DNA of 64,000 bases from positions 1 through 64,000 of the forward strand of contig LADZ01000054.1 in the NCBI GenBank assembly GCA_000961845.1. Reading direction: 5' to 3'. The notes under the pieces were generated by a model. It was not told the DNA's origin and ran no database searches. It was given only the letters and a program-made list of their open reading frames with translations. The position numbers were made by a program, and so were the translations under genes. This stretch comes from Flavobacteriales bacterium BRH_c54 (GTDB taxonomy: Bacteria > Bacteroidota > Bacteroidia > Flavobacteriales_E > Vicingaceae). Positions 4,757 to 20,758 of the stretch are shown piece by piece (position 1 is the stretch's first letter; every line of letters starts with the position of its first letter).

Positions 4757-5389
4757 TTAAGTATTAATAATATTTTCTTTAACCGCATAAATGACGATGC
4801 CTGCTGTATTTTTAATATTCAGCTTGTGCATGATGTTTTTACGGTGAGTATTTACAGTATGCGTACTCAAGTACAATTTGTCAGCAATTTCTTTATTGGT
4901 TAATCCATCAGAAATCAATTTAATAATCTCAATCTCTCGTTCCGACAAAGAAATTCCATCGCAATCTAACGTGTTTTCTTGGTTTTTTTCTGATAAAATA
5001 TTAATAACCATTCCACAATAAAACTGCTTACCATTATAAGTATCTTCTAGAGCTTCCAAAATTTCTTGCTTATCGCAATCGTCTAGTAAATAACTGTCCA
5101 CTCCATAACTCAACGATTTATGAATGATTTGTTTTGCCAAAGATGGCGTTATAGCTAAGATTTTAGCACTTTTATAAATCTCTTTAATTTTTTTAACCGC
5201 ATCTAATCCAAACTGCCCTGTAGAATAATCAATAACAACAATATCCGGAAAGTACCTTTTAGAACACTCACACAGATGTTCTATAGAATTAACCACCCCT
5301 AACACCCTATTACGCATCTTGCTTTGCACAATAGTTTTTAAACCTTCGGCAACTATCGGATTGTTATGTGCTATTAAAATATCTATCAT
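4757..5389 (-). CDS. LuxR/NarL-family response regulator with atypical receiver
   Basis: A 210-residue two-domain regulator: receiver (~1-120) plus a LuxR-type helix-turn-helix (~145-205, LSEREIEIIKLISDGLTNKE then IADKLYLSTHTVNTHRKNI), which is an unambiguous GerE/LuxR DNA-binding motif. Asp54 sits at the usual phospho-acceptor place (VVIDYSTG) and Thr81 is present. The usual acidic pair at the N-terminus, normally DD, reads His8-Asn9, and the conserved Lys after strand 5 is replaced by Asp (YLLDDCD). Magnesium binding and phosphotransfer may therefore be altered or lost. No kinase is adjacent; the HisKA_3 kinase at 17810-19177 is of the type that usually pairs with LuxR regulators. A perfect inverted repeat lies 7 bases upstream of the start. 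Confidence 0.9.
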   Translation of the reverse strand: MIDILIAHNNPIVAEGLKTIVQSKMRNRVLGVVNSIEHLCECSKRYFPDIVVIDYSTGQFGLDAVKKIKEIYKSAKILAITPSLAKQIIHKSLSYGVDSYLLDDCDKQEILEALEDTYNGKQFYCGMVINILSEKNQENTLDCDGISLSEREIEIIKLISDGLTNKEIADKLYLSTHTVNTHRKNIMHKLNIKNTAGIVIYAVKENIINT

Positions 5390-5604: not shown

Positions 5605-8600
5605 ATGAAACATTTGGTATTGTTGTCAATAATATGTTTTTTGTTACTTGCAAGCAATGTCTTTGCTTCTGGTGAACTTACTTTTATTGAAAACAAAGGT
5701 CAGTGGCACAACAATGTATTGCTTAAATCTGAGCTAAATAGTGGTTTTGTTTATTTAGAAAAAAACCGACTAACTTTCGATTTGTATGATGTTGCCATGA
5801 TAGAAAAATATGCTCATCATCATAATCATTATCAACTAAATGAAATTCCCAACAAACTAAATTGGCACGCTTACAACGTAAATTTTAAAGATGGTAATCC
5901 CAACCCTACCATTATAAAATCCGAAAAAGTATTTGCCTATTTTAATTACTTTTTAGGCAATGATCCCAAAAAATGGGCTTCTAATGTTAAGGGGTACAAA
6001 AAAATTACTTATCAAGAAGTTTATAAAGGTATAGACTTTCAAATGTATTCTACCGATAATTTAAAATACGATTTTATTGTAAAAGCTCGAGCCAATCCCA
6101 ACCAAATTAAGTTAGTTTATAATGGTCAAAATAAACTACAACTCAAAAAAGGTCAATTACATGTTACTACTTCTGTAAATACTATTATTGAAGATAAACC
6201 TTATGCTTATCAGCTCATTAATGGCGAAAAGAAACAAATACTATGTAACTATACACTCATCAATAATGAATTAGGTTTTGAATTTCCTAATGGATACAAT
6301 AAAAACTACGATTTAATTATAGATCCAACTTTAATGTTCTCTTCACTTTCGGGTTCTACAGCTAATAATTTCGGTTATACCGCTACTTTTGATTCTAAAG
6401 GATTTTTATATGCAGGAAGTTCTGCTTTTGGAACGGGTTATCCGGTTACTGTTGGAGCTTACAGCACTACTTTTAATGGTGGTGGTGATGATATTGCCAT
6501 TTCAAAATTTGATACTTCGGGAACTTTTCTAATTTACTCTACTTATATTGGTGGAAGCAATGTAGAGTTACCTCACAGTTTAATTGTAAACAGCTTTGAT
6601 GAATTATTTATTTTAGGAACTACCAGCTCATTTGATTACCCTACGACTACAACTGCTTACGACAATACGTTTAATGGCGGAACTATGAACAATTTGTCAA
6701 ACGGATTAGGAGTAAATTACACCAATGGGTCAGATATTATTGTTTCCAGATTAAGTACCAACGGAACCAGCCTAATTGCCTCAACTTATTTAGGAGGTTC
6801 ACAAAATGACGGACTTAACTCAACAGGAGCGAATACACTAAAATATAATTATGCTGACGAGGTTCGTGGTGAAATTGACATAGATAAAAACAACAACATT
6901 TACATTGTTAGTTGTACCAGAAGTCCCAATTTTCCTATTGTTGGAAATGTTTTTCAACCGACTTACGGAGGTGGAGATATTGATGCTTGTATCATTAAAA
7001 TGGACAATAACTTACAAAATATTATTTGGAGCAGCTTTTTAGGTGGAAACAACCATGATGCAGCATATTCATTAGCGATTGATAGCAATGAAGATTTATA
7101 TTTAACCGGAGGAACTAACTCAACTAACTTTCCTTCATCAACCAATGCTTACCAAAATGTTTTTGTTGGTGGAAGGTCTGATGGTTTTGTTACTCGTGTT
7201 GCTAAAAACGGCAGTCAAATACTTAATTCAACATTTTTTGGATCAACCACTTACGATCAAAATTATTTTATTGAGTTAGATAAAAATGATAATGTCTATT
7301 TATTAGGACAAACAGAAATTACCGACAATACTTTTATTCATAATGTTTTATGGTCGAACCCCGGAAGTGGACAATTTATTGGTAAACTTACCCCTATACT
7401 AGACTCATTAATTTATTCTACTGTTTTTGGTTCAGGAAACGGAATTAATATTTCGCCAACAGCCTTCTTAGTGGATTTATGTAATAAAATTTATTTGTCA
7501 GGCTGGGGAGGCGCTGTAAATCAATCTTCCACCAATAATGCCGGATATACTACAGGAATGCCCATTACACCCAATGCTTTTCAAAACACCACTGATGGTA
7601 GTGATTTTTATGTAATGGTAATGGAAGATGACGCTTCCAACATTAATTACGGTTCATTTTTCGGTGGTCCTGTAAGTTCCGAACATGTAGATGGAGGAAC
7701 CAGTAGATTTGACAGAAAAGGTAAAGTTTATCAAGCCATTTGTGCCGGTTGTGGTGGAAATTCCGATTTACCCATTTATCCGCCTACCAATCCTATGAAC
7801 CAAAATAACCATAGTTGTAACTTGGGTGTTTTTAAAATGGATTTTGATTTGCCTGTGGTAGTTGCCGATTTTGAAGTACCTCCTGTTGGTTGTGCACCTT
7901 TTACCGTAAATTTCAACAATACAAGTTTAACTCAATCTAACACCAATTTCACTTGGAATTTTGGAGATGGAAATGGAAGTTCCCAATTTTCACCTACACA
8001 TACTTATAACAATCCGGGAACTTACACTATTACCTTAATCTTAAACGATACAAACACTTGCAATTTGGCAGATACCACAGTAAAAACTATTTTAATATTA
8101 GGCAGTACCAACACTACCGACTCTACTATTAATATTTGTCCTGGAGAAAGTGTTCAAATAGGAACAACCCCCAATCCTGACCCAAATATTAACTATAACT
8201 GGTCTCCGACAGTTGGATTAAGTGATTCTACCATTTCCAACCCTTTTGCCTCACCAACCAGTTCAACCAACTATCAATTATATATTTCCGATAGCGTATG
8301 TGTGGATACCATTACTTACCCTATTGTGGTGAATACTCCTTTGCTTTCAGTTACTAACGATACAACACTTTGTTACAACGAAACCATTTCACTTTCTGCT
8401 AATTCTTTTGGAACAAGCAACACCTATGTTTGGTCTTCTAATAGCAACTTTACTGACACACTTAATTCTCCTATTACCAACAACACTTATTCTCCACCAA
8501 TCAATATTTCAGGAACTTATTACATTCAAATTAATAACAATGGCTGTACATTATCCGATAGTGTAGAAATAAAAGCCATTGGACAAAGTGGTATTATTGG

Positions 8601-9829: not shown

Positions 9830-10858
9830 TTGGGAAGTAAAAAATCACATATTAGTTGGATTAAAATTTGGGTAATAACATTGTTACCCATGTTTATTTT
9901 CATTAATAAACTAGTGGGACAAGATATTCATTTTTCTCAATTTTTCAATTCTCCCTTAAACCTCAACCCTTCATTAACAGGTAATTTTATTGGAGATATT
10001 CGTTTAGTTGCCAACCAAAGAACCCAATGGAGTTCGGTAACCACACCTTATATTACTTTTGCACTATCGGGGGAATATAGAAACATTTATAATACTTCAT
10101 TAAACGCTGGACTTTCCATTTTTCATGATAAAGCAGGAGATTCTCAATTTTCAACCTTACAAATAGGGATACCAATAAGTTATACCTTATACGTTAATGA
10201 TTCTTCACAAACGGTTCAATTTGGAATACAACCATCTTTTATACAAAGAAGTATCAACTATGACGACCTGAGGTTTGACAATCAGTACGATGGAACAGTT
10301 TATAATTCGGCTTTAGGAAACGGTGAAACTTTTGGCACCAACGGACGCAACTATTTTAACTTGCATGCCGGTATCAGTTGGAACTATTTATTTGCGCAAC
10401 GAAAATCAGTAAATGCAGGTTTTGCTGTGCATAATCTAACCCAACCGGAACAAAGTTTTTTTAGTGGCGAAAGCATTCCTTTAAAACACCGCTATACTTT
10501 TCATGCAGGAACAGATTTGAAGATTCACAACGATTTTGATATTCTTCCGAGAGTGATGTTAGGCTATCAACATAATTATAAAGAAATAATAATGGGCGGG
10601 TCGCTTAGATATCACCTCAACAACGGAAACTATAGAAATCTTTACGGAGGAATTTACTACAGAAATTCGGATGCAGCCTATTTAACTGCAGGAATAGATT
10701 ATCATAATTTTCATTTTAAAATCAGTTATGATATTAATGTTTCATCCCTCGAAGTAGCCAGCAACAACCGTGGCGGATTTGAATTTGCTTTAATCTATAT
10801 TTTTGAAAAATACAGACCGGTTATTAAGCGATATAAAGCTTGTCCGAATTTTATATGA
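9830..10858 (+). CDS. PorP/SprF-family type IX secretion membrane protein
   Basis: A 342-residue outer-membrane protein of the PorP/SprF family. A hydrophobic signal segment (WIKIWVITLLPMFIFIN) precedes QDIHFSQFFNSPLNLNPSLT, the family's characteristic mature N-terminus, and the rest is beta-barrel-like. The likely start is the TTG at 9830, one base after the previous stop; the first ATG (9890) would remove the charged region of the signal peptide. PorP/SprF proteins act with type-B T9SS cargo in surface attachment, so this one is probably the partner of the preceding giant protein. Its stop overlaps the start of the next gene (ATGA at 10855-10858). Confidence 0.93.
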   Translation: MGSKKSHISWIKIWVITLLPMFIFINKLVGQDIHFSQFFNSPLNLNPSLTGNFIGDIRLVANQRTQWSSVTTPYITFALSGEYRNIYNTSLNAGLSIFHDKAGDSQFSTLQIGIPISYTLYVNDSSQTVQFGIQPSFIQRSINYDDLRFDNQYDGTVYNSALGNGETFGTNGRNYFNLHAGISWNYLFAQRKSVNAGFAVHNLTQPEQSFFSGESIPLKHRYTFHAGTDLKIHNDFDILPRVMLGYQHNYKEIIMGGSLRYHLNNGNYRNLYGGIYYRNSDAAYLTAGIDYHNFHFKISYDINVSSLEVASNNRGGFEFALIYIFEKYRPVIKRYKACPNFI

Positions 10859-13098
10859 AAATAAAAATTTGCATATTATTTTTTTTGGTCGGCAGTTTAA
10901 TAAAAATAAACGCCCAAAGCCAATCGCAATTAATAAAAGTAGGTGACCAACTTTTTAATGAAAAAGATTATTATGCAGCATCGCTGTGGTACAAACAAGC
11001 GTTAGATATTGATTCTACATTATTGGAATTAAAATTCAAGTATGCAGAGTCGCTAAGAATGTATAACGATTATGCAAAAGCCGAATGGCAATACTTTTCT
11101 GTTTATAAAGATGATAGAGGTAGAGTTTACCCATTAGCCCCATTTTGGTATTCTATGATGCTAAAATACAATGGCAATTATTTAGAAGCCAAAAAATCTT
11201 TTAAAAGAATAAAAAGACATTTTACTAACGATAGAAAAGGCTTTTATTACCAAAAAGTGATGCAAGAAATTGAATCTTGTGAAAAAGCCATTGAGATTAT
11301 GAAAGATACACTGTTAGTTGATGTGAAAAATATCGGAACAGGAATAAATACCTATAACAGTGAATTGGGAGCTAATTTTATGAATGATAGTTTAATCATT
11401 TATACTTCTTTGCGAGATGAAAAAATGAAGGAAGACAATCAAGTTACAGATACTTCGCTTTACCTAACACGATTATTTACTTCATCCAAAAATAACAACG
11501 ATTGGAACCAAGGAAAAAAGCTCCCTGAAAGCATTAACATCCCCAATTACCATATTGCTAACGGATGTTTAAGTCCTGATGAAAAAACCTTTTATTTTAA
11601 TCAATGTGATAGGAATTTAACTTGTAAAATTTATGCCGTTGCTATAGAAAATGGCGAATGGAAACCACCCGTTTATGAAGTGAAAAACATTAATCTGGAA
11701 GGCTTCACCTCTTCCCAACCTTTTATTACAAAAATTAATAACAAAGAAGTCTTGTTTTTCTCATCAAACCGACCTGGTGGTTTTGGAATGATGGATATTT
11801 GGTACGCACAAAAAAATGGAAGCGAGTTTTCTTCTCCTGTAAATCCAGGTATAAATGTTAACAGTATTGAAGATGAAATAACGCCTTTTTATAACCACAA
11901 AGACAGTTCCTTATATTTTAGCTCTAATTGGCATTACGGTTTAGGAGGGTTTGATATTTTTAAAAGTAAAACCGACTTAATCAGTTTTCAAACGCCTGAG
12001 AATTTAGGATTTCCTATCAATACAAGTGTAAACGATTTTTATTATTACGAACATAATAATATGGTTTTACTAACCTCTAACCGAAAGGGCTCTATGGCCA
12101 AAAAAGGAGAAACTTGTTGCAACGATATTTATTTTTATGAAATTCCTGATACGATTGAACCAGTTTACACCACACTAGAAGAATTAAACAGATATTTGCC
12201 TGTAAAGCTATATTTTCATAATGACTTTCCCGACCCAAGAACACGAGATACAACTACTTTGCAAACCTACGAGCAGACTTACAAAGACTACACACATTTG
12301 TATAACAAATACCGAAGAGAATACAGTGAAGGTTTAAAAAACGAAGAAAAAACCAATGCCGAAGTAGAAATTGATGAACTTTTTTCCAACTATATAGATA
12401 AAGGAATTAAAGATTTAATAATGTTTACACCACTGCTAATTAAAGAATTAGAAAATGGAAAATCCATAACATTAACCGTAAAAGGTTATGCGAGTCCGCT
12501 GTCTAAAACAGATTACAACATAAACCTTACACTTAGAAGGATTTCCAGTTTAATTAATTATTTAAAAGAATACGAAAATGGCATATTAGCACCGTATATC
12601 AATGGGACTGCTGAAAATGAGGCTAAACTCTCCTTTATTAAAGTACCTTTTGGTGAATACCAGTCCAACGAAATTAGTGATGATTTGGAAGATAAAAGAA
12701 ACTCAGTTTACAGTCCGGCTGCTGCTTTAGAACGCAAGATTGAAATTATTGCCATTACTGAACACGATACTAACAAAGTAGCCATGGACGGTTCTGAATT
12801 AGAAAAATTGCCTTTGCTTACTTTTAAAGACTCTATAATAGAATTTGATATATTGTTAGACGAAATGCCTATTAAAATAATTAATAATGGAGAGGCTCCT
12901 TTAAAAATATTTGAAGCCAACTGTAATTGCGATGCATTTGAGGTGATTTTTCCAAAAGAAGAAATTCCTACTTACGAAATACAATATTTAACCTTGAAAA
13001 AAATAAAAGGAATTGAAAATACAGAAAAAAATTGTACCATTACTTTTTTAACGAATACCATTCCTAATAAGAAAGTGCTAGAGATTAAATTGAAGTAA
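10855..13098 (+). CDS. TPR/PD40/OmpA-like protein with C-terminal DUF1573 domain
   Basis: A 747-residue exported protein. The ATG at 10855 overlaps the PorP stop and begins a good signal peptide (MKIKICILFFLVGSLIKINA); an upstream TTG at 10840 is less likely. Domains in order: TPR-like helices (~20-130, LFNEKDYYAASLWYKQALDI), PD40/WD40-like repeats (~150-420, CLSPDEKTFYF, VLFFSSNRPGGFGMMDIW, SLYFSSNWHYGLGGFDIF), a divergent OmpA-like peptidoglycan-binding domain (~520-635, VKGYASPLSKTDYNINLTLRR ending ALERKIEI), then a DUF1573-like beta domain (~660-747, IINNGEAPLKIFEANCNCD). The OmpA part would anchor the T9SS surface complex to the cell wall. The DUF1573 tail is not part of the usual OmpA partner and is noteworthy. 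Confidence 0.88.
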   Translation: MKIKICILFFLVGSLIKINAQSQSQLIKVGDQLFNEKDYYAASLWYKQALDIDSTLLELKFKYAESLRMYNDYAKAEWQYFSVYKDDRGRVYPLAPFWYSMMLKYNGNYLEAKKSFKRIKRHFTNDRKGFYYQKVMQEIESCEKAIEIMKDTLLVDVKNIGTGINTYNSELGANFMNDSLIIYTSLRDEKMKEDNQVTDTSLYLTRLFTSSKNNNDWNQGKKLPESINIPNYHIANGCLSPDEKTFYFNQCDRNLTCKIYAVAIENGEWKPPVYEVKNINLEGFTSSQPFITKINNKEVLFFSSNRPGGFGMMDIWYAQKNGSEFSSPVNPGINVNSIEDEITPFYNHKDSSLYFSSNWHYGLGGFDIFKSKTDLISFQTPENLGFPINTSVNDFYYYEHNNMVLLTSNRKGSMAKKGETCCNDIYFYEIPDTIEPVYTTLEELNRYLPVKLYFHNDFPDPRTRDTTTLQTYEQTYKDYTHLYNKYRREYSEGLKNEEKTNAEVEIDELFSNYIDKGIKDLIMFTPLLIKELENGKSITLTVKGYASPLSKTDYNINLTLRRISSLINYLKEYENGILAPYINGTAENEAKLSFIKVPFGEYQSNEISDDLEDKRNSVYSPAAALERKIEIIAITEHDTNKVAMDGSELEKLPLLTFKDSIIEFDILLDEMPIKIINNGEAPLKIFEANCNCDAFEVIFPKEEIPTYEIQYLTLKKIKGIENTEKNCTITFLTNTIPNKKVLEIKLK

Positions 13099-13620
13099 TT
13101 ATTTCTCAGGTTTTGAATCATCATCAGATGATAAACTCAATAATTTTTGTCTGAACATAAACTCTAACTGTGCATTAACTGTAAGTAAATCTTCTGTAAG
13201 TTTTTTGTTTTCCCTTCTTAAAGTAAAAACTTCAAAAGCCTGTTCTATCAACTTTCTCATATAATCAACATCCCATGGTTTCTGTATATATTTATATACC
13301 TGACTTTTATTAATTGCATCAATAACCACATTGATATCACTATATCCAGTAACCAATATACGAATCATTTCAGGATATTTTTCTTTAATCGTTTCAAAAA
13401 ACTCTATTCCTGTAACTTTTGGCATTCGCTGATCTGAAAGAATAATACTAATTGTACTTGCTTCCTTGTCTAATATTTTTTCAGCTTCTTCTGCATTAAT
13501 AGCTGTATAAATTTTAAAATCTCTCCTAAATGCTGCTTTAAACGAATTTAAGTTTTCTTGTTCGTCATCTAAATAAAGGATTACAGCTTTGTTTTCTTGG
13601 TCTTTTATAGCTTCGGTCAT
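13099..13620 (-). CDS. stand-alone receiver-domain protein
   Basis: A 173-residue single-receiver response regulator with no DNA-binding domain. All phosphorylation residues are present: Asp18-Asp19, phospho-acceptor Asp63 (LSDQRMP), Thr91 region (LVTGYSD) and Lys114 (YIQKPWD). The last ~45 residues look like a coiled coil (RRENKKLTEDLLTVNAQLEF). It closely resembles the receiver at the front of the kinase at 17810 (shared LDDE..NL..FKA..RR.F..YTA and INVVIDAINKSQVYKYI patterns), so the two are probably paralogues in one signalling system. It ends next to the OmpA-like gene's stop (convergent) and is divergent from the ThiF-like gene. Confidence 0.92.
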   Translation of the reverse strand: MTEAIKDQENKAVILYLDDEQENLNSFKAAFRRDFKIYTAINAEEAEKILDKEASTISIILSDQRMPKVTGIEFFETIKEKYPEMIRILVTGYSDINVVIDAINKSQVYKYIQKPWDVDYMRKLIEQAFEVFTLRRENKKLTEDLLTVNAQLEFMFRQKLLSLSSDDDSKPEK

Positions 13621-13644
13621 AATATAAAAAGTTTTTTTTAAAAT

Positions 13645-13670
13645 TATAATAAATAATTTGATTTATTATA
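13645..13670. promoter_or_regulatory. perfect inverted repeat, receiver-gene side
   Basis: Ten-base perfect arms, TATAATAAAT and ATTTATTATA, around a 6-base loop AATTTG. It lies 25 bases upstream of the minus-strand start at 13620, in the 155-base divergent gap. AT-rich arms make chance more likely than for the neighbouring repeat, but two perfect repeats in one short divergent gap are suggestive of regulation. Confidence 0.4.
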
Positions 13671-13689
13671 CCTAAAACATTCAAACAAA

Positions 13690-13711
13690 TACTACGTATT
13701 TTTACGTAGTA
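13690..13711. promoter_or_regulatory. palindromic operator candidate with TACGTA half-sites
   Basis: Nine-base perfect arms, TACTACGTA and TACGTAGTA, separated by TTTT, 65 bases upstream of the ThiF-like gene's ATG and 70 bases upstream of the divergent receiver gene. No second copy was seen in the window. The TAC...GTA symmetry resembles sites bound by NarL/LuxR-type regulators, which is an inference only. It is the best candidate for a shared control site of the signalling module. Confidence 0.55.
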
Positions 13712-13775
13712 AAGGTAGTCTTTTTTTTTGTAATATAGTCTTTTCAAACCAACCTTTAAAGCAAAGAGTTTAGCC

Positions 13776-14936
13776 ATGAAGAACTCCATTAAAAATCAAT
13801 ACTATGAACAATTTTCTTCAAAAACCGACAATGAAGTTTTGTATCCTTCATTTTTTAAATTAGAAGAAGGTAGTAACAGCGACAACTTGCATCAATTAAT
13901 AAAAAACAATCCTCAAATTGTTATTATTGACGAAATTCAAAGTCAGCTGAAGGAATTGATAAAATTAAGACACCCCCAAGAAAAATTTACTGAAAAAGAG
14001 TTATCTCAAAAAATTGAAACTCATTTAGGAGAAACTAAATTAGATAATTATGGTGTTTGGGTCTATTATCCTTGGCGAAATACTTTAGTTCACTTATTAG
14101 ATGAAAAAGAATTTGTAGAAGTTAGAACCAATAGAAACCAAAATAAAATTACTACTACGGAAGAAGAAATTTTAGCCACAAAAAAAATTGGTATTATTGG
14201 GTTATCTGTTGGCAAAGCCATTGCACTTACTATGGCTATGGAACGTATTTGTGGAGAAATTGTATTAGCAGATTTTGATGTTATTGAATTATCTAATTTA
14301 AACAGAATACAGACTGGAGTGCATCATTTTAACATCAAAAAAACGGTTGTTGTAGCACGAGAAATTGCAGAAATTGACCCTTACCTAAAAGTAACTTGTT
14401 ACCATGATGGATTAACAGCAACCAACATAAACGACTTTTTTACCAAAGATAAAAAATTGGATGTTTGTGTAGAAGTATGCGATGGACTTGAGATTAAAAT
14501 TCTTGCTCGCCAAAAAGCTAAGGTTTTGGGAGTTCCTGTAGTAATGAACTCAAGCGATAGAGGTACAACAGATATTGAAAGGTTTGATTTAGATGCTAAC
14601 TTGCCAATTCTTCATGGGTTAATAGAGCATCTAGATTTAAGTAAATTAAAAGAGGCCAAAACAACTAAAGAAAAAGCAATTTATTTATTACCAATGCTAG
14701 GTGTTGACACATTGTCTAAGCGACTACAAACGTCAATGCCAGAAATAGGAAAAACAATTACTACTTGGCCTCAGTTAGCTTCTGGAGTGATTTTCGGTGG
14801 CGGAATATGTACAGATGTTTGCAGAAGAATTTTATTAAATCAATTTTCAAAATCAGGACGCTATTTTGTAGATATTGAAGACCAAATAAATAATGATTTA
14901 GAAGATTATATTTCTCAAAAAAGAAGAAATAGTTAA
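13776..14936 (+). CDS. ThiF/E1-like protein of the Rv1355c (MoeY-like) type, lacking the nitroreductase domain
   Basis: A 386-residue cytoplasmic protein. Residues ~1-130 are a family-specific region with NYGVWVYYPWRNTLVHLLDE, followed by a ThiF/E1-type Rossmann domain (~135-370). The nucleotide loop reads IGIIGLSVGKA (Gly139, Gly142, Gly146), then LADFDVIELSNLNRIQTGV, the D-x-D-x-x-x-x-S-N-L-N-R signature of ATP-binding E1 enzymes (Asp166, Asp168, Asn174, Arg177). The combined pattern matches the mycobacterial Rv1355c family as I recall it; those proteins carry a nitroreductase-like domain after ThiF, which is absent here. E1-like enzymes adenylate a C-terminal carboxylate, but no ubiquitin-like partner or peptide substrate is visible nearby. 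It is first of a co-directional run with an acyltransferase-fold protein and two kinases, which suggests a role in signal production or sensing. Confidence 0.85.
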   Translation: MKNSIKNQYYEQFSSKTDNEVLYPSFFKLEEGSNSDNLHQLIKNNPQIVIIDEIQSQLKELIKLRHPQEKFTEKELSQKIETHLGETKLDNYGVWVYYPWRNTLVHLLDEKEFVEVRTNRNQNKITTTEEEILATKKIGIIGLSVGKAIALTMAMERICGEIVLADFDVIELSNLNRIQTGVHHFNIKKTVVVAREIAEIDPYLKVTCYHDGLTATNINDFFTKDKKLDVCVEVCDGLEIKILARQKAKVLGVPVVMNSSDRGTTDIERFDLDANLPILHGLIEHLDLSKLKEAKTTKEKAIYLLPMLGVDTLSKRLQTSMPEIGKTITTWPQLASGVIFGGGICTDVCRRILLNQFSKSGRYFVDIEDQINNDLEDYISQKRRNS

Positions 14937-14966
14937 TTTTAAAACCGAACAAAAGACAAAAGAAGA

Positions 14967-15713
14967 ATGGAAGAAGTGCAACATAAATTTAGAGTAAGTG
15001 CTTTTAGAGCTGTTGATGAACCAAACTTATGTTCGCAATATGTTAAAGGTCATGTAAAAGTTTTAACAGATTATGGTATATCGAACATTACATCAAATAA
15101 TAATTTATGGGTTAATAATCCCAACATTTATTGTCTAGGATTACACTCTGAATCGAATGAATTAATGGCAGGTATTAGAATTCAACTAGCTGATGGAATA
15201 AATCCACTACCTATTGAGAAAGCCATTGGACATATGGATAGTACAATTTATGACTTGGTTGAAAAATACGCAATCAATGGAGGAATAGGAGAATTATCAG
15301 GATTGTGGGTAAATAACCGATTAAAAGGAATGGCAATAGGTTGGTATATGGTTAGAGCTGCTATCGCCTCATCTAATCAATTAAATTTTAAAACAATGAT
15401 TGGGATATGTGGAGATGTTACATTGAAAATGTTTAATAATGTAGGTTTTACAATTGAAAAAGGATTAGGAAATAACGGTCAATTTTATTATCCAAAAGAA
15501 GATTTAATTGCTCATGCTGTTGGAATATTAGACGCTGTAACGCTTGACAATGCTATAGAGTACGACAAAAAAATAATGCAATCACTAAGAAATAAAGTAC
15601 ATCAAAAAAGAATTGAATCCGACACAAAGATAAAAGTAGATATCGAGTATAATTTAAAATATCCAAAAGTCGTTAGAGTACTTTATAATAAAAAGCTAGA
15701 AACTATAAAATAA
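14967..15713 (+). CDS. acyltransferase (GNAT/autoinducer-synthase-like fold)
   Basis: A 248-residue cytoplasmic protein. Residues ~50-75 (YCLGLHSESNELMAGIRIQLADG) look like the strand pair of GNAT and autoinducer-synthase folds, and residues ~105-145 (GIGELSGLWVNNRLKG, GMAIGWYMVRAA) have the layout of an acidic residue (Glu109), a short strand and an acyl-CoA-binding helix. The end of the domain, KMFNNVGFT, fits the usual last GNAT segment. The order resembles LuxI-like synthases, although no specific LuxI catalytic set can be confirmed. It sits 30 bases after the ThiF-like gene and 6 bases before a membrane histidine kinase. A role in making or modifying a small signal is an inference from this context. 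Confidence 0.7.
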   Translation: MEEVQHKFRVSAFRAVDEPNLCSQYVKGHVKVLTDYGISNITSNNNLWVNNPNIYCLGLHSESNELMAGIRIQLADGINPLPIEKAIGHMDSTIYDLVEKYAINGGIGELSGLWVNNRLKGMAIGWYMVRAAIASSNQLNFKTMIGICGDVTLKMFNNVGFTIEKGLGNNGQFYYPKEDLIAHAVGILDAVTLDNAIEYDKKIMQSLRNKVHQKRIESDTKIKVDIEYNLKYPKVVRVLYNKKLETIK

Positions 15714-15719
15714 AAAGCT

Positions 15720-17822
15720 ATGTTAGTTACTCACAAAAAAAATCGCTTCTTTCTATTTTATGTTTTAATCTTTCTTTCCTCATTTTTTAATTTAAGAGCT
15801 GAAAATATAATCATCGATAATGAAAACAATTTAATCAATATTGGTGGTGATGTTGAAATATATGAAGACAAAACAAATAACTTATCTTTTGAAGAAGTTA
15901 TCTCAAAAGAATTTACTCCATCTAAATCACCTGTCCCAAATCTAGGGATTTCAAAATCTAACTTTTGGATTAAAATACCCATTACCAACAAAACAGAAAG
16001 TGAACATCTTATTCTTGAATTATCATTAGCAATTATAGACCATATAGAATTTTATTATTATACAGATGATAATCAGATAAACGTAATAAAAACTGGAGAT
16101 GCTTATCCTTTTGAAAAGAGAGAATATAAAGACCCTCATTATTTATTTGATTTAAATATTCCAACAGGCGAAACCAAAACTTACTATTTAAATGTTAGAA
16201 GCAATGAAGCCTTACAACTTCCGCTAAAAGTTGGAACAATAATAAATGTTTATGACCAAATAAAAAATAGAGACCTTTTATCTGGAATTTATTTTGGAAT
16301 CATGTTAGTAATGATTTTATACAACCTATTTATTTATTTTTCTGTTAGAGACAAAAGCTATCTTTACTATGTAGTTTATATTATTTGCATTTTACTTACT
16401 CAAACAAGTTTACAAGGATATACTTTTCAATATCTATGGCCAAATAGTGCCTTAATTACAAAGTTCAGCTTAATATTCCTCCCTTCTCTATCGGGAATTA
16501 CAGGCATGTTTTTTATGAACGTCTTTCTTCAAACAAAAGAATTTTCAAAAAGACTTTATAACATCGCTTTTATTTTTGTTATACCTTACCTAATTGCTTA
16601 CGTAATTGCCTTTATGGGAGAACTAGGTATAAGCCAGGCAGTTATTCAACTTAACTCCACAATTATATCTTTATATATGTTAATAATTCCAATTATTATA
16701 TATAGAAGAGGGTTTAAACCTGCAAAATATTTCATTGCGGCTTGGAGTGTATTCCTTCTAGGCGTTTTTGTATTTGTATTAAAAGACATGGAAGTCCTTC
16801 CTTTTAATAACCTAACTAGGTACACTATGCAGATTGGCTCTGCAATTGAAACTATACTTCTTTCATTTGCTCTTGCAAATAGAATAAGTATCATTAGAAA
16901 AGAAAACGAACATCTCATAAAAGAACAAAACATAATCTTAGAACAAAAAGTAAAAGAACGTACTGCCGAATTAAACAAAGCTATCGAAGATTTAAAACAG
17001 GCTCAATCGCAATTGGTAGAATCTGAAAAAATGGCTTCTCTTGGTCAACTTACTGCCGGAATTGCCCATGAAATTAATAACCCTATCAATTTTGTTTCTT
17101 CAAATGTGTTTCCTCTAAAACAAGACATTGAAGATTTAAAAAGCATCCTAAATAAATATGCAGAGATTACTGAAAGTGCTGATTTAAAAAGTAAACTAAA
17201 CGAAATAAATCAACTTAAGAATGAGCTTGATTACGAAATTTTGTTGGAAGAACTCGACACCATAATTCATGGAATAGAAGATGGTGCTAAAAGAACTGCC
17301 GAAATTGTGAGTGGCTTAAGAAATTTTTCCAGATTAGATGAAAGCGAATTTCAAAGTGCCAATGTTAATGATTGCATCAGTACCACTTTAAAAATTATTC
17401 AACCCAAATTGGTCGACATAAAAATTATAACCGAACTTGAAAACATCCCTCCTATTGATTGTTACCCCGGAAAACTCAATCAATTCTTTTTAAACACAAT
17501 AGATAATGCTATTTATGCTGTTAACGCAGTAAAAAAACCTAATCATAAAGGCAAAATTGAAATTACAACAACTCTAAAAAATGACCATATTATAGTTACA
17601 CTAAAGGATAATGGTATTGGCATGGACGAAAACACTAAAAATAAAATTTTCGACCCATTTTTTACTACTAAAGATGTAGGCGAAGGAACCGGTTTAGGCA
17701 TGTCTATCGCTCATGGAATTCTTGAAATGCATCATGCAAAAATTGAAATTGAATCAGAAATTGATAAAGGAACTCAAATAAAAATATTTTTACCCTTAAC
17801 TTTACCGACATGGAAAGAATAA
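15720..17822 (+). CDS. 7TMR-DISM sensor histidine kinase
   Basis: A 700-residue membrane kinase. A signal peptide (~10-27) is followed by a periplasmic 7TMR-DISMED2-like beta domain (~30-175, with LGISKSNFWIKIPITN) and seven membrane helices (~186-390), which is the 7TMR-DISM architecture. A coiled coil (~392-440, KVKERTAELNKAIEDLKQAQ) leads to the kinase core: phospho-acceptor His450 (GIAHEINNPINFV), N box (NTIDNAIYAV), G1 box DNGIGM and G2 box GTGLGMSIAHG. The periplasmic domain of this family is thought to bind carbohydrates or other small ligands. No receiver or DNA-binding domain is attached. The next gene overlaps by 13 bases, so the two signalling proteins are translationally coupled. 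Confidence 0.95.
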   Translation: MLVTHKKNRFFLFYVLIFLSSFFNLRAENIIIDNENNLINIGGDVEIYEDKTNNLSFEEVISKEFTPSKSPVPNLGISKSNFWIKIPITNKTESEHLILELSLAIIDHIEFYYYTDDNQINVIKTGDAYPFEKREYKDPHYLFDLNIPTGETKTYYLNVRSNEALQLPLKVGTIINVYDQIKNRDLLSGIYFGIMLVMILYNLFIYFSVRDKSYLYYVVYIICILLTQTSLQGYTFQYLWPNSALITKFSLIFLPSLSGITGMFFMNVFLQTKEFSKRLYNIAFIFVIPYLIAYVIAFMGELGISQAVIQLNSTIISLYMLIIPIIIYRRGFKPAKYFIAAWSVFLLGVFVFVLKDMEVLPFNNLTRYTMQIGSAIETILLSFALANRISIIRKENEHLIKEQNIILEQKVKERTAELNKAIEDLKQAQSQLVESEKMASLGQLTAGIAHEINNPINFVSSNVFPLKQDIEDLKSILNKYAEITESADLKSKLNEINQLKNELDYEILLEELDTIIHGIEDGAKRTAEIVSGLRNFSRLDESEFQSANVNDCISTTLKIIQPKLVDIKIITELENIPPIDCYPGKLNQFFLNTIDNAIYAVNAVKKPNHKGKIEITTTLKNDHIIVTLKDNGIGMDENTKNKIFDPFFTTKDVGEGTGLGMSIAHGILEMHHAKIEIESEIDKGTQIKIFLPLTLPTWKE

Positions 17823-19177
17823 ATGTTTTATATCTCGATGACGAAGCTTCCAATCTAAAAGCTTTTAAAGCTACTTACAGAAGAATTTTTAATGTCTATA
17901 CTGCACTATCAGCCGAAGAAGGTTATAAAGTACTAAAGCAATTTCCTGTAGAAGTTATTATTGCCGATCAACGCATGCCCGGCAAAACAGGTGTAGATTT
18001 TTTTCAATCCATTTTAGAAACTTATCCTCACCCTATTAGAATTTTACTAACTGCCTATACTGATATTAATGCTGTTATTGACGCCATAAATAAAGGACAA
18101 GTTTACCGATATGTTACCAAGCCATGGAATGATTTCGACCTTAAACTTACCATAGAAAATGCCTATCAATTATATTTATTAAAAGAACAACACAATAAAC
18201 TTAACGCCAAATATCACAAAGTTTTTACCCAAGCAACCGATCCAATCATCCTTTTCGATTTAAAAGGTAGAATTATAGATTATAACAAATCTGCTGTCGA
18301 TTTTATTAAATCTGCCCCGGAAGATAGCTTGAATTTAAAAACTTTTTCTTCTTTCTTCAAAAACAAATCAGACATTGCTAAAGTTGTCAATAAAATTAAT
18401 GAAGACGGCTATATTAAAGATTCTGAATATAAGTTAGTTCTAAAAAATAACGAAGTTAGAAATTGCCTTATTTCCGTAAATTCTATCAATGATAGCTATG
18501 GCAATCCTGTAATTTTTCAAGTAATTATTAAAGATTACACCGAACACCATAGAGTGAACCAACTTTTATTAAAAACCATTATCAAAACTCAAGAAAAAGA
18601 ACGAGAAAGAATTTCAAGAGATTTGCATGATGGAGTAGGACAATCGTTAGCCGCCATTAAACTTCATATTGAAAACATTAAATATGAATCTACACATACT
18701 AAAGAATTAGAAACAATCTCTAACATACTAAAAGACACCATAAAAGATTTAAGAACCATTTGTTACGAAACATTACCTTTAGTACTTTATGATCATGGGT
18801 TAAAAAAAGCTGTTCAAGATTTAATTTCTAAAAACATTTCTCATCAATTAGATATGCATTTGAATTGCGATGACAATCTTCCTGAACTAGGCAAACACCT
18901 TAACATTGCTATATTCAGAATTATTCAAGAATTTATTTCTAATACCATTAAACACGGAAAAGCATCGCTTATAAATATAAACATATCTATAGTGGAAGAA
19001 AACATTTTAATTGAATTAAAAGACAACGGAATTGGTTTTGAAATTGCTGATTTATCAGTTAACCATGGCCATGGAATTCAAAACATTAGAAGCCGAGTAG
19101 AATCTTTTGCAGGAACGTTAGTCATGGAAAGTGCTTTAAAAAAAGGAACTTCATTTTCTATTTTAATTCCTTATTAA
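17810..19177 (+). CDS. receiver-PAS-HisKA_3 histidine kinase
   Basis: A 455-residue soluble protein: receiver (~1-120; Asp10-Asp11, Asp53 in IIADQRMPG, Lys104 in VTKPWND), PAS domain (~135-250, with FDLKGRIIDYNKSAVDF), HisKA_3 dimerisation region with His273 (ERERISRDLHDGVGQSLAAI) and an ATPase domain (EFISNTIKHGKA, DNGIGFEI, GHGIQNIRSRV). HisKA_3 kinases usually phosphorylate NarL/LuxR regulators; none is adjacent, the nearest being the gene at 4757-5389. The receiver is probably a target of the upstream membrane kinase, and the HisKA_3 core would pass the signal on. The ATG at 17810 lies inside the upstream gene. Confidence 0.94.
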   Translation: MERINVLYLDDEASNLKAFKATYRRIFNVYTALSAEEGYKVLKQFPVEVIIADQRMPGKTGVDFFQSILETYPHPIRILLTAYTDINAVIDAINKGQVYRYVTKPWNDFDLKLTIENAYQLYLLKEQHNKLNAKYHKVFTQATDPIILFDLKGRIIDYNKSAVDFIKSAPEDSLNLKTFSSFFKNKSDIAKVVNKINEDGYIKDSEYKLVLKNNEVRNCLISVNSINDSYGNPVIFQVIIKDYTEHHRVNQLLLKTIIKTQEKERERISRDLHDGVGQSLAAIKLHIENIKYESTHTKELETISNILKDTIKDLRTICYETLPLVLYDHGLKKAVQDLISKNISHQLDMHLNCDDNLPELGKHLNIAIFRIIQEFISNTIKHGKASLININISIVEENILIELKDNGIGFEIADLSVNHGHGIQNIRSRVESFAGTLVMESALKKGTSFSILIPY

Positions 19178-19181
19178 GCCA

Positions 19182-20318
19182 ATGCAACGCCTTTTAACTT
19201 TCTTTACATTAATTATTTCATTTTCTTGTGGAGAAATCAATGAATCTATAACTGAACCAACAACCCCATCAGCACAAATTAGTTACGCAAAAGGTTTTCA
19301 TATAGCTTACTTTAAAGATTACAAAATCGTTAACGTTCATCAACCTTGGAAAGGAGAAAATAAAAATCTAAACTATGTGTTGTATGAACATGAAAAACCA
19401 GAAAATGTAGAAGGTATTTTCATTAAAACTCCCATAAAATCTATTGTTTGCTTAAGTTTAACACATTTAGCTTTTATTGAAAAGCTAAATGAAGTTAACT
19501 CCATTAAAGGAATTGCGGGTTGTGATTATGTTAGCAGCGAAGTCATAAAAGAAAAAATTAGTACCAATGTTATCCAAGAAGTTGGTCAACACGAAGTATT
19601 TAACTATGAAATATTAGTAAATATTGCTCCTGATATTGTTATGGCTTATGGCATAGACCAATCTTCAACTGCCAAACTTAATAAATTTGCTTCATTAGGT
19701 TTAACAACTGTTCTAAATGCAGAATATATGGAGTTACACCCTTTAGGCATGGCAGAATGGATAAAATTTGTAGCTGCTTTTTATAATAAAGAACAACTAG
19801 CCGATTCTATTTTTAAACACATAGAAACAGAATACTTAAACGTAAAAAAAACAGTGGCAGATTTAAAAGAACAACCAACTGTTTTTACAGGAATGCCTTG
19901 GAATGGTGCTTGGCATGTTCCGGGAGGAACTTCTTTTCAAGCTCAATTTTTAAAAGATGCCGGAGCAAATTATATTTGGAGCGATAATGATGAAGAAAGA
20001 AGCATCGTAAAAAGCAAAGAAATTATTATTGATGAAGCCCTAAATGCAGATTTTTGGCTCAATGTAAATGCTTTTAACAGTATAGAAGAAATTGTTGCTC
20101 AAGATGCTGTGTTAGCCAATTTTGCAGCTGTTAAAAATCAACAGGTTTATAACAACAACCTAAAAGTAAATGCTGCTATGGGTAATGATTATTGGGAATC
20201 GGGTGTAGTAAATCCACACATTATTTTAAAAGATTTAATAGCTATTTTTCATCCAACAAAAATTGAACATCAGCTTTATTATTATAAAAGATTAGAGAAA
20301 AAATCTTCATCAAATTAA
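19182..20318 (+). CDS. periplasmic substrate-binding lipoprotein (iron-siderophore/cobalamin type)
   Basis: A 378-residue lipoprotein with a lipobox-like LIISFSC (Cys16). The body has the helical-backbone binding-protein fold used for iron complexes and vitamin B12: IKSIVCLSLTHLAFIEKLN, then NIAPDIVMAYG in the first lobe and FTGMPWNGAWHVPGGTSFQA in the second. No permease or ATPase gene is nearby, so it is an orphan. It begins 4 bases after the kinase gene, in the same direction, and so may share its transcript. A ligand-sensing rather than transport role, feeding the kinases, is possible but not shown. Confidence 0.85.
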   Translation: MQRLLTFFTLIISFSCGEINESITEPTTPSAQISYAKGFHIAYFKDYKIVNVHQPWKGENKNLNYVLYEHEKPENVEGIFIKTPIKSIVCLSLTHLAFIEKLNEVNSIKGIAGCDYVSSEVIKEKISTNVIQEVGQHEVFNYEILVNIAPDIVMAYGIDQSSTAKLNKFASLGLTTVLNAEYMELHPLGMAEWIKFVAAFYNKEQLADSIFKHIETEYLNVKKTVADLKEQPTVFTGMPWNGAWHVPGGTSFQAQFLKDAGANYIWSDNDEERSIVKSKEIIIDEALNADFWLNVNAFNSIEEIVAQDAVLANFAAVKNQQVYNNNLKVNAAMGNDYWESGVVNPHIILKDLIAIFHPTKIEHQLYYYKRLEKKSSSN

Positions 20319-20332
20319 ACCCATCACAAACT

Positions 20333-20758
20333 TTGAAAACTCCAAACTGCAATACCATTGAAGCCCTTGAAGCAGATTATTTATATAAAAAACTATCTCA
20401 ACTGCCTAATGCCGGTAACGGACTTTTTACTGCAATAGCTATTTATAAAGATGAAACCATAGCTGTTTTTAAAGGAGAGTTATTAACCGATATACAAGCT
20501 GAAAAGCGAGCATCAGAAGGAAATGATAAGTACTTCATTAATTTACTAAATGGAAGCATCATGGACTCCATGAATGTAACATGCTTTGCTAAATATGCCA
20601 ACGATGCCAGTGGTTTTGCCAATTCAAACTTTAAAAATAATGCGAAAATTACTTTAGATGATAATGATAAGGTATGCATACAGGCAACTAGAAACATTAA
20701 AGCCAATGAAGAATTGTTTTGTAGTTACGGCAAAAACTATTGGAAAAAACATGGTTGA
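20333..20758 (+). CDS. SET-domain protein (putative protein lysine methyltransferase)
   Basis: A 141-residue single-domain protein matching the SET fold. The N-terminal part (LPNAGNGLFTAIAIYKDETI, then VFKGELLT) corresponds to the SET-N segment. The centre (FAKYANDASG) is in the place of the R-F-x-N-H-S motif but is degenerate. The end (RNIKANEELFCSYGKNYW) is the classic E-E-L-x-x-x-Y-G segment, with the catalytic Tyr. SET proteins bind S-adenosylmethionine and methylate protein lysines. No ATG exists near the start, so the TTG at 20333 is the probable initiator. It is the last gene before a bidirectional terminator. Confidence 0.85.
   Translation: MKTPNCNTIEALEADYLYKKLSQLPNAGNGLFTAIAIYKDETIAVFKGELLTDIQAEKRASEGNDKYFINLLNGSIMDSMNVTCFAKYANDASGFANSNFKNNAKITLDDNDKVCIQATRNIKANEELFCSYGKNYWKKHG

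Follow-up and report, generated by a model that had tools for sequence, protein, structure and literature searches.

A conserved acyltransferase, ThiF and sensor kinase module of Bacteroidia as a candidate N-acyl amino acid-derived signalling circuit

What is the role of a predicted N-acyl amino acid synthase encoded between a ThiF-like protein and a membrane sensor kinase? The question is raised by positions 13099–20758 of a 64,000-nucleotide stretch of DNA from Flavobacteriales bacterium BRH_c54 (contig LADZ01000054.1, positions 1 to 64,000; here called the window, and contig C11 of a 2.9-Mb genome). Six co-directional genes, separated by gaps of 30, 6, −13, 4 and 14 bases, lie beside a divergent receiver gene; the genes, coordinates, strands, domains and gaps listed in an earlier note on this DNA were all reproduced. 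The features are as follows.

13099–13620, minus strand: lone receiver-domain response regulator of 173 amino acids (Response_reg, 64.5 bits), divergent from the synthase operon
13691–13710, no strand assigned: perfect 20-base-pair (bp) palindrome in the receiver/ThiF intergenic region, candidate operator
13776–14936, plus strand: ThiF-like predicted carboxylate-activating cyclase of the Rv1355c/TrzS family, 386 amino acids (NF005901 match), without a flavin oxidase domain
14967–15713, plus strand: GNAT-fold N-acyltransferase, predicted N-acyl amino acid synthase (FeeM/TrzA-like) from predicted structure, fold search and profile comparison
15720–17822, plus strand: membrane sensor histidine kinase (7TMR-DISMED2, 7TMR-DISM_7TM, HisKA and HATPase domains)
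17810–19177, plus strand: REC-PAS-HisKA_3-HATPase kinase by domain matches, putative soluble relay kinase, without a DNA-binding domain
19182–20318, plus strand: substrate-binding lipoprotein (Peripla_BP_2), accessory
20333–20758, plus strand: small SET-domain protein, accessory

The reading that we favour, with some reserve, is that the module is a self-contained autoinducer circuit with an N-acyl amino acid-derived, probably oxazolone-type, signal. The chances appear evenly divided for a wider proposal, in which such loci make up a class-wide quorum-sensing family of Bacteroidia: an N-acyl amino acid-derived signal (an oxazolone, or a methyl ester in methyltransferase variants) would be made by a FeeM-like synthase and an exchangeable carboxylate-modifying enzyme, read by a 7TMR-DISM kinase, and reinforced by LuxR-type positive feedback through the 20-bp palindrome.

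Conservation of the module across Bacteroidia

The neighbouring DNA of relatives contains a recurrent block, in which a lone receiver, ThiF, the acyltransferase and the 7TMR-DISM kinase are followed by a REC-kinase. With an intact acyltransferase and kinase as the requirement, 56 loci were counted, from about 18 families and 36 genera (L134, apparently the same contig as L078 under a second handle, was excluded). In every one of the 56 the genes for the acyltransferase and the sensor kinase adjoin and point the same way, and they are therefore far more than chance neighbours. ThiF adjoins the acyltransferase in 49 of the loci, and a divergent lone receiver lies within 700 bp in 43. The core formed by these five parts is a real conserved module. 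The earlier note had made its proposal depend on conserved co-occurrence in other Bacteroidota, and ThiF, the GNAT, the 7TMR-DISM kinase and the receivers are indeed kept together in about 18 families.

The distribution is patchy: of the 295 Bacteroidia genomes sampled, 55 (~19%) gave a match to the acyltransferase. Among these 295 genomes, orthologues of the acyltransferase and the kinase are shared by 52 (totals 55 and 57; Fisher 4e-48), and those of the acyltransferase and ThiF by 49 (totals 55 and 52; Fisher 2e-45); both values ignore the relatedness of the genomes, so that it is safer to rely on the number of families. The exceptions include contig ends, incomplete genomes, weak partial kinase matches and methyltransferase variants, and full-length kinase matches above 400 bits always occurred with the acyltransferase present. 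In one locus without ThiF (L118), a ThiF-oxidase is encoded elsewhere in the same genome, among unrelated genes (L195). The acyltransferase had no match in the plasmid collection.

Predicted chemistry of the synthase

Taken alone, the window acyltransferase matches no Pfam or NCBIfam model, the FeeM and Autoind_synth models of Pfam included, and a sequence-only search of the PDB returned nothing; Autoind_synth, the LuxI family model, is also absent from the families listed for 50 members of the acyltransferase family. An AlphaFold model built with 50 relatives reached a predicted local distance difference test score of 93.2 and a predicted template-modelling score of 0.91, and its 12 best Foldseek matches in the PDB are all FeeM or acyl-homoserine lactone (AHL) synthases, the best with an E-value of 6.8e-8. 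FeeM (2G0B) and BjaI (5W8C), both among the top structural matches, are also the structures reported as nearest to TyzA of Mycobacterium tuberculosis in papers on N-acyl oxazolones (PMC12856293, PMC10404671). Profile comparison with Rhodococcus proteins in the TrzA position, which are encoded beside Rv1355c homologues, gave an E-value of 2e-5 over 171 columns. The protein is thus predicted to be a GNAT of the FeeM/AHL-synthase type, and the autoinducer-synthase-like layout noticed earlier is borne out by both family and predicted structure.

Two further arrangements of acyltransferase genes were observed. In L071 two copies (7394–8146 and 10613–11368) stand on either side of ThiF in one module, which suggests two acyl or amino acid specificities. 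On the Streptomyces plasmid NZ_CP109451.1 (L182, 6926–8724) a MerR regulator is followed by a ThiF gene that lacks the oxidase and overlaps an ordinary GNAT gene; no kinase gene adjoins the two, which form a bare synthase-like pair; this GNAT was considered as a member of the same acyltransferase family and ruled out by profile.

The ThiF protein aligns over residues 15–379 to positions 4–346 of the 722-position Rv1355c-family model NF005901, with 465.6 bits (E 2.6e-139); this falls just under the whole-protein cut-off of 476 because the oxidase half is missing. The score against the generic Pfam ThiF model is 60 bits, and that against the ThiF/MoeB equivalogs is 65.7 bits with a cut-off of 159 (NF006395), the protein falling under all other such cut-offs too. 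Rv1355c is TrzS, which together with TrzA converts acyl-CoA and tryptophan to an N-acyl oxazolone; the ThiF half of TrzS carries out the ATP-dependent cyclisation, for which Asp217 is required, and the oxidase half the desaturation (PMC12856293, PMC10404671). The CD motif keeps its aspartate without exception in 39 module ThiFs, the window residue being Asp236, as well as in the TrzS-like proteins of actinobacteria, and Asp236 would be the equivalent of Asp217, as judged by alignment to homologues rather than to TrzS itself.

In most relatives the ThiF is a 744–781 amino acid fusion with a nitroreductase-type flavin oxidase. The window protein has no such half, and the oxidase of a relative, used as a query against the genome without a positive control, gave no match; the expected product is therefore an oxazolone that is saturated, or its opened form. 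The product of the module is probably an N-acyl amino acid derivative of the oxazolone type, as far as can be judged by homology. That the ThiF protein and the acyltransferase make a small molecule, as the earlier note had supposed, is strongly supported by the published biochemistry of the like pairs TrzA/TrzS, TyzA/B/C and OxzA/B. The predicted chemistry of synthesis appears well supported, and is more certain than the sensing step discussed below.

In six loci without ThiF a methyltransferase stands between the acyltransferase and the kinase, either a soluble S-adenosylmethionine (SAM) methyltransferase (L101, L114, L142, L148) or an ICMT-type enzyme (L107, L135); a search for ThiF in five of the six genomes (G056, G146, G178, G227, G314) found no match. 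Enzymes of the ICMT family methylate carboxyl groups, and ThiF and the methyltransferases may therefore be alternative caps for the free carboxylate of the N-acyl amino acid, with the reservation that class I enzymes could methylate elsewhere. As the methyltransferase takes the place of ThiF, different potential carboxylate-capping enzymes share one sensor type, and each variant would be expected to make a signal of its own and to have a sensor that differs accordingly. A single clade with 100/100 support unites the sensors from the four modules with a soluble methyltransferase; the acyltransferases and kinase domains of these modules are ungrouped in free trees.

An O-methyltransferase in L149 was also considered as a replacement of ThiF and rejected: ThiF and the divergent receiver lie at the end of another contig of the same genome (L196), and the methyltransferase is probably an extra gene. 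In L080 a FAD_binding_4 oxidoreductase of 525 amino acids (6434–8008) is inserted between acyltransferase and kinase, and the ThiF there is reduced to a fragment of 156 amino acids. Outside the module, on the Streptomyces plasmid NZ_CP109497.1 (L190, 3167–6081), a ThiF of the Rv1355c/TrzS family overlaps a gene for beta-ketoacyl-acyl carrier protein synthase III, a possible different acyl donor system, and TrzA/TrzS-like pairs on Rhodococcus plasmids (L183, L192, L193) adjoin a GGDEF gene, again a signalling neighbour, comparable to the cyclic di-GMP genes in M. tuberculosis.

Sensing, relay and the candidate operator

The sensor kinase carries DISMED2 (125.6 bits), 7TMR-DISM_7TM (184.9 bits), HisKA (29.8 bits) and HATPase (79 bits) domains. 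In each of 16 module genomes tested, its best match lies within the module, and where there is a second match it scores far lower. The distances between the parts were compared by partial Mantel tests on 40 loci, in which a p of 0.0005 is the floor. Given the kinase domain, the sensor correlates with the acyltransferase (r 0.43, p 0.0005) and with ThiF (0.39, p 0.0005). The distances of the lone receiver track the kinase domain (0.50 given the sensor) and not the sensor (0.11 given the kinase, p 0.18, not significant). A sensor that reads the product and a receiver that docks on the kinase would give such a pattern, which is suggestive only and helps the proposal that the product is sensed by the 7TMR-DISM kinase.

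The REC-PAS-HisKA_3 kinase is present in the window as the earlier note had it, but it is a lineage variant rather than a general part; in most other families its place is taken by a REC-HisKA protein of about 360 amino acids, often with a CheY-like receiver. A domain search found no DNA-binding domain in the lone receiver. The output regulator is likely to be a LuxR-type response regulator (REC and GerE domains) encoded elsewhere in the genome, on contig C57 (79540–80190). It groups, with 100/99 support, with a regulator beside the module in L072, and response regulators of the same type directly follow the REC-PAS-HisKA_3 gene in L068 and L069.

A candidate operator may connect this regulator with the synthase. 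The palindrome at 13691–13710 has the form ACTACGTA-TTTT-TACGTAGT, that is, ACTACGTATTTTTACGTAGT; it is perfect, and none is expected by chance in the window. Its core, with at most two mismatches, occurs in the same receiver/ThiF gap in L004, L005, L067, L068, L069, L070, L073, L074, L079 and L080. A site also lies about 100 bp upstream of the LuxR-type regulator gene on C57, and is kept there in G008 and G012, and so in three species of the genus; the promoter of the L072 regulator gene also contains one. When no more than one mismatch is allowed, the genome contains 20 core matches against 4 for the reversed pattern, which was the only control in this AT-rich DNA, and two sister species contain 20 against 7 and 19 against 6. 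Nearly all sites in the genome of the window are intergenic, and their neighbours include type IX secretion sorting-domain proteins, a GH18 protein, a divergent LytTR pair and several proteins whose N termini resemble signal peptides. These neighbours suggest a regulon of secreted proteins, which would fit quorum sensing.

The LytTR pair, two small divergent DNA-binding proteins, is encoded at 4771–5944 of L211 (contig C43 of the same genome), and the common intergenic region holds two tandem palindrome sites.

The following mechanism can be proposed. By homology, the FeeM/TrzA-like acyltransferase would link a fatty-acyl group to an amino acid, and ThiF would adenylate the free carboxylate and cyclise the N-acyl amino acid to an oxazolone, giving a desaturated product in relatives with the oxidase and probably a saturated ring or its opened form in the genome studied here. 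The hydrophobic product would build up and be sensed by the 7TMR-DISM kinase. From its domains, this kinase would phosphorylate two receivers, the lone one and that of the REC-PAS-HisKA_3 kinase, in the manner of the PhcBSRQ relay. The HisKA_3 kinase may then act on the LuxR-type response regulator (the one on C57, or those beside the REC-PAS-HisKA_3 gene in sister lineages), which would bind the TAMGTATTTWTACKTA palindrome in the synthase promoter and in that of its own gene, as well as at the genes for secreted proteins.

The lipoprotein and the SET-domain protein, which the earlier note had counted among the members of the module, were rejected as core parts: among the loci read, they stand beside the module only in L004 and L005, the two closest relatives of the window in the searches, both Flavobacteriales metagenome-assembled genomes. 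Just upstream of the module, at 9830–13098 of the window, a PorP/SprF-type protein and a PorE/CHU_0125-like TPR protein are encoded, and both are retained in the same two relatives.

Alternative explanations and known systems

Several observations weigh against the proposed circuit. The acyltransferase also correlates with the kinase domain given the sensor (0.37), and shared ancestry by itself could yield part of the sensor correlation. The palindrome scan took in six genomes of one family, and in the three more distant of these the excess over the control is smaller or absent (5 against 5, 14 against 1, 12 against 6); the link from operator to LuxR-type regulator is likewise drawn from sequence. 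A swap of a SAM-methyltransferase and sensor cassette is hinted at by identities and quick trees, yet approximately unbiased tests do not reject a single clade (acyltransferase, p 0.146; kinase, p 0.282), and such a swap is not claimed. This genome, in which no oxidase was found, is unlikely to make the desaturated oxazolone that is already known. Finally, carbohydrate binding was the function first proposed for DISMED2 domains, and the kinase might sense something other than the product of the module.

The last point belongs to the strongest of the alternatives, which we regard as unlikely but worth serious attention: the enzymes would make an N-acyl amino acid or oxazolone lipid with a non-signalling role (in defence, the membrane or stress protection), and the kinases would sense something else, a glycan for example, and switch production on. 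The DISMED2 domain, commonly carried by 7TMR-DISM kinases, is present here, the mycobacterial oxazolones are without a proven signalling role, and the addition of methyltransferases and a flavin adenine dinucleotide-dependent oxidase would also suit a natural product selected to diversify. However, the kinase orthologue and the synthase are linked almost obligatorily, one to one, in about 18 families, the distances of the synthase follow those of the sensor half when the kinase half is corrected for, and the layout of the relay resembles that of the Phc quorum-sensing operon.

Far less probable is that the GNAT and ThiF act on proteins, be it the kinases or some other target, through acetylation or an E1-like conjugation, with no diffusible molecule involved. 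Both superfamilies contain such enzymes, and weak Acetyltransf_1 matches in Pfam and E1-type matches for ThiF were seen; but the acyltransferase structure is closer to FeeM and AHL synthases than to protein acetyltransferases, no ubiquitin-like protein was seen in the module, the ThiF scores far higher with the Rv1355c model than with generic ThiF (465 against only 60 bits), and small-molecule cyclase activity has been demonstrated for a member of the Rv1355c family. That housekeeping genes (a thiamine or molybdopterin ThiF/MoeB, a generic acetyltransferase and unrelated two-component genes) have come together by chance is scarcely credible. Short gaps are common in bacterial genomes, but about 18 families have kept both the order and the content of the module, a co-occurrence that already contradicts this reading; the genome has a separate canonical ThiF-family gene (277 bits, contig C33), and the patchy presence in about 19% of sampled Bacteroidia is unlike that of a housekeeping gene.

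If the autoinducer circuit is real, it would provide Bacteroidia with a signal-synthase/receptor pair, and 7TMR-DISM receptors with a candidate class of ligands, together with an operator and target genes. The biosynthesis of oxazolone lipids is known, their function is not established, and their discoverers, who speculated on signalling, remarked that the products resemble cell-cell signals (PMC12856293, PMC10404671). The strongest genetic support for this idea would then come from the tie, kept in about 18 families, to a sensor kinase of its own. No publication on the module was found in a literature search that was thin on subscription journals and bioRxiv, and its novelty is accordingly provisional.

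The synthase half resembles several known pathways. TrzAS (Rv1356c/Rv1355c), TyzACB (M. tuberculosis) and OxzAB (Pseudoalteromonas rubra) share with it an adjacent FeeM-fold N-acyltransferase and a ThiF-like cyclase with the conserved aspartate (PMC12856293, PMC10404671). The fused flavin oxidase of TrzAS-type pathways is present in most relatives of the module and missing from the window copy. In contrast to these pathways, the module adds a dedicated sensor kinase, a REC-kinase and a receiver, its acyltransferase is only a remote relative, and in some relatives a methyltransferase replaces ThiF. The clusters for stieleriacine, kyonggic acid and thalassotalic acid (N-acyl dehydrotyrosines) likewise encode an N-acyl amino acid synthase together with ThiF and a nitroreductase, and in some cases a methyltransferase; these compounds come from Pseudomonadota, Actinomycetota and Planctomycetota, and the paper that describes them mentions no histidine kinase (PMC12479983). 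FeeM and the LuxI-type AHL synthases have their fold, as predicted, in common with the window acyltransferase, which differs in being only about 13% identical and in its ThiF partner.

The signalling half is closest in layout to the PhcBSRQ operon of Ralstonia, which serves quorum sensing by methyl 3-hydroxy fatty acid signals and encodes a methyltransferase, a sensor kinase, a receiver-kinase without a DNA-binding domain and a lone receiver resembling the receiver of that kinase (PMC8578825, PMC6989110). A Phc-like operon of a methyltransferase, a kinase and two receivers also lies on a conjugative plasmid of the soil bacterium Paraburkholderia graminis (L186, 2660–7035); its kinase lacks the 7TMR-DISM domain, and the better plasmid matches of the window receiver include one of the two receivers of this operon. 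PhcBSRQ and the module have in common a synthase beside a sensor kinase, a REC-kinase without a DNA-binding domain and a lone receiver, a likeness of layout. The synthases differ, PhcB being a SAM methyltransferase where the window module has an N-acyl amino acid synthase and ThiF; in the module a methyltransferase occurs only beside the GNAT of the six variant loci described above, and as an extra gene in L149. The outputs probably differ as well, that of the module being probably a LuxR-type response regulator and that of PhcBSRQ the LysR regulator PhcA. Each half of the module is of a known kind, and it is their combination that appears to be new.

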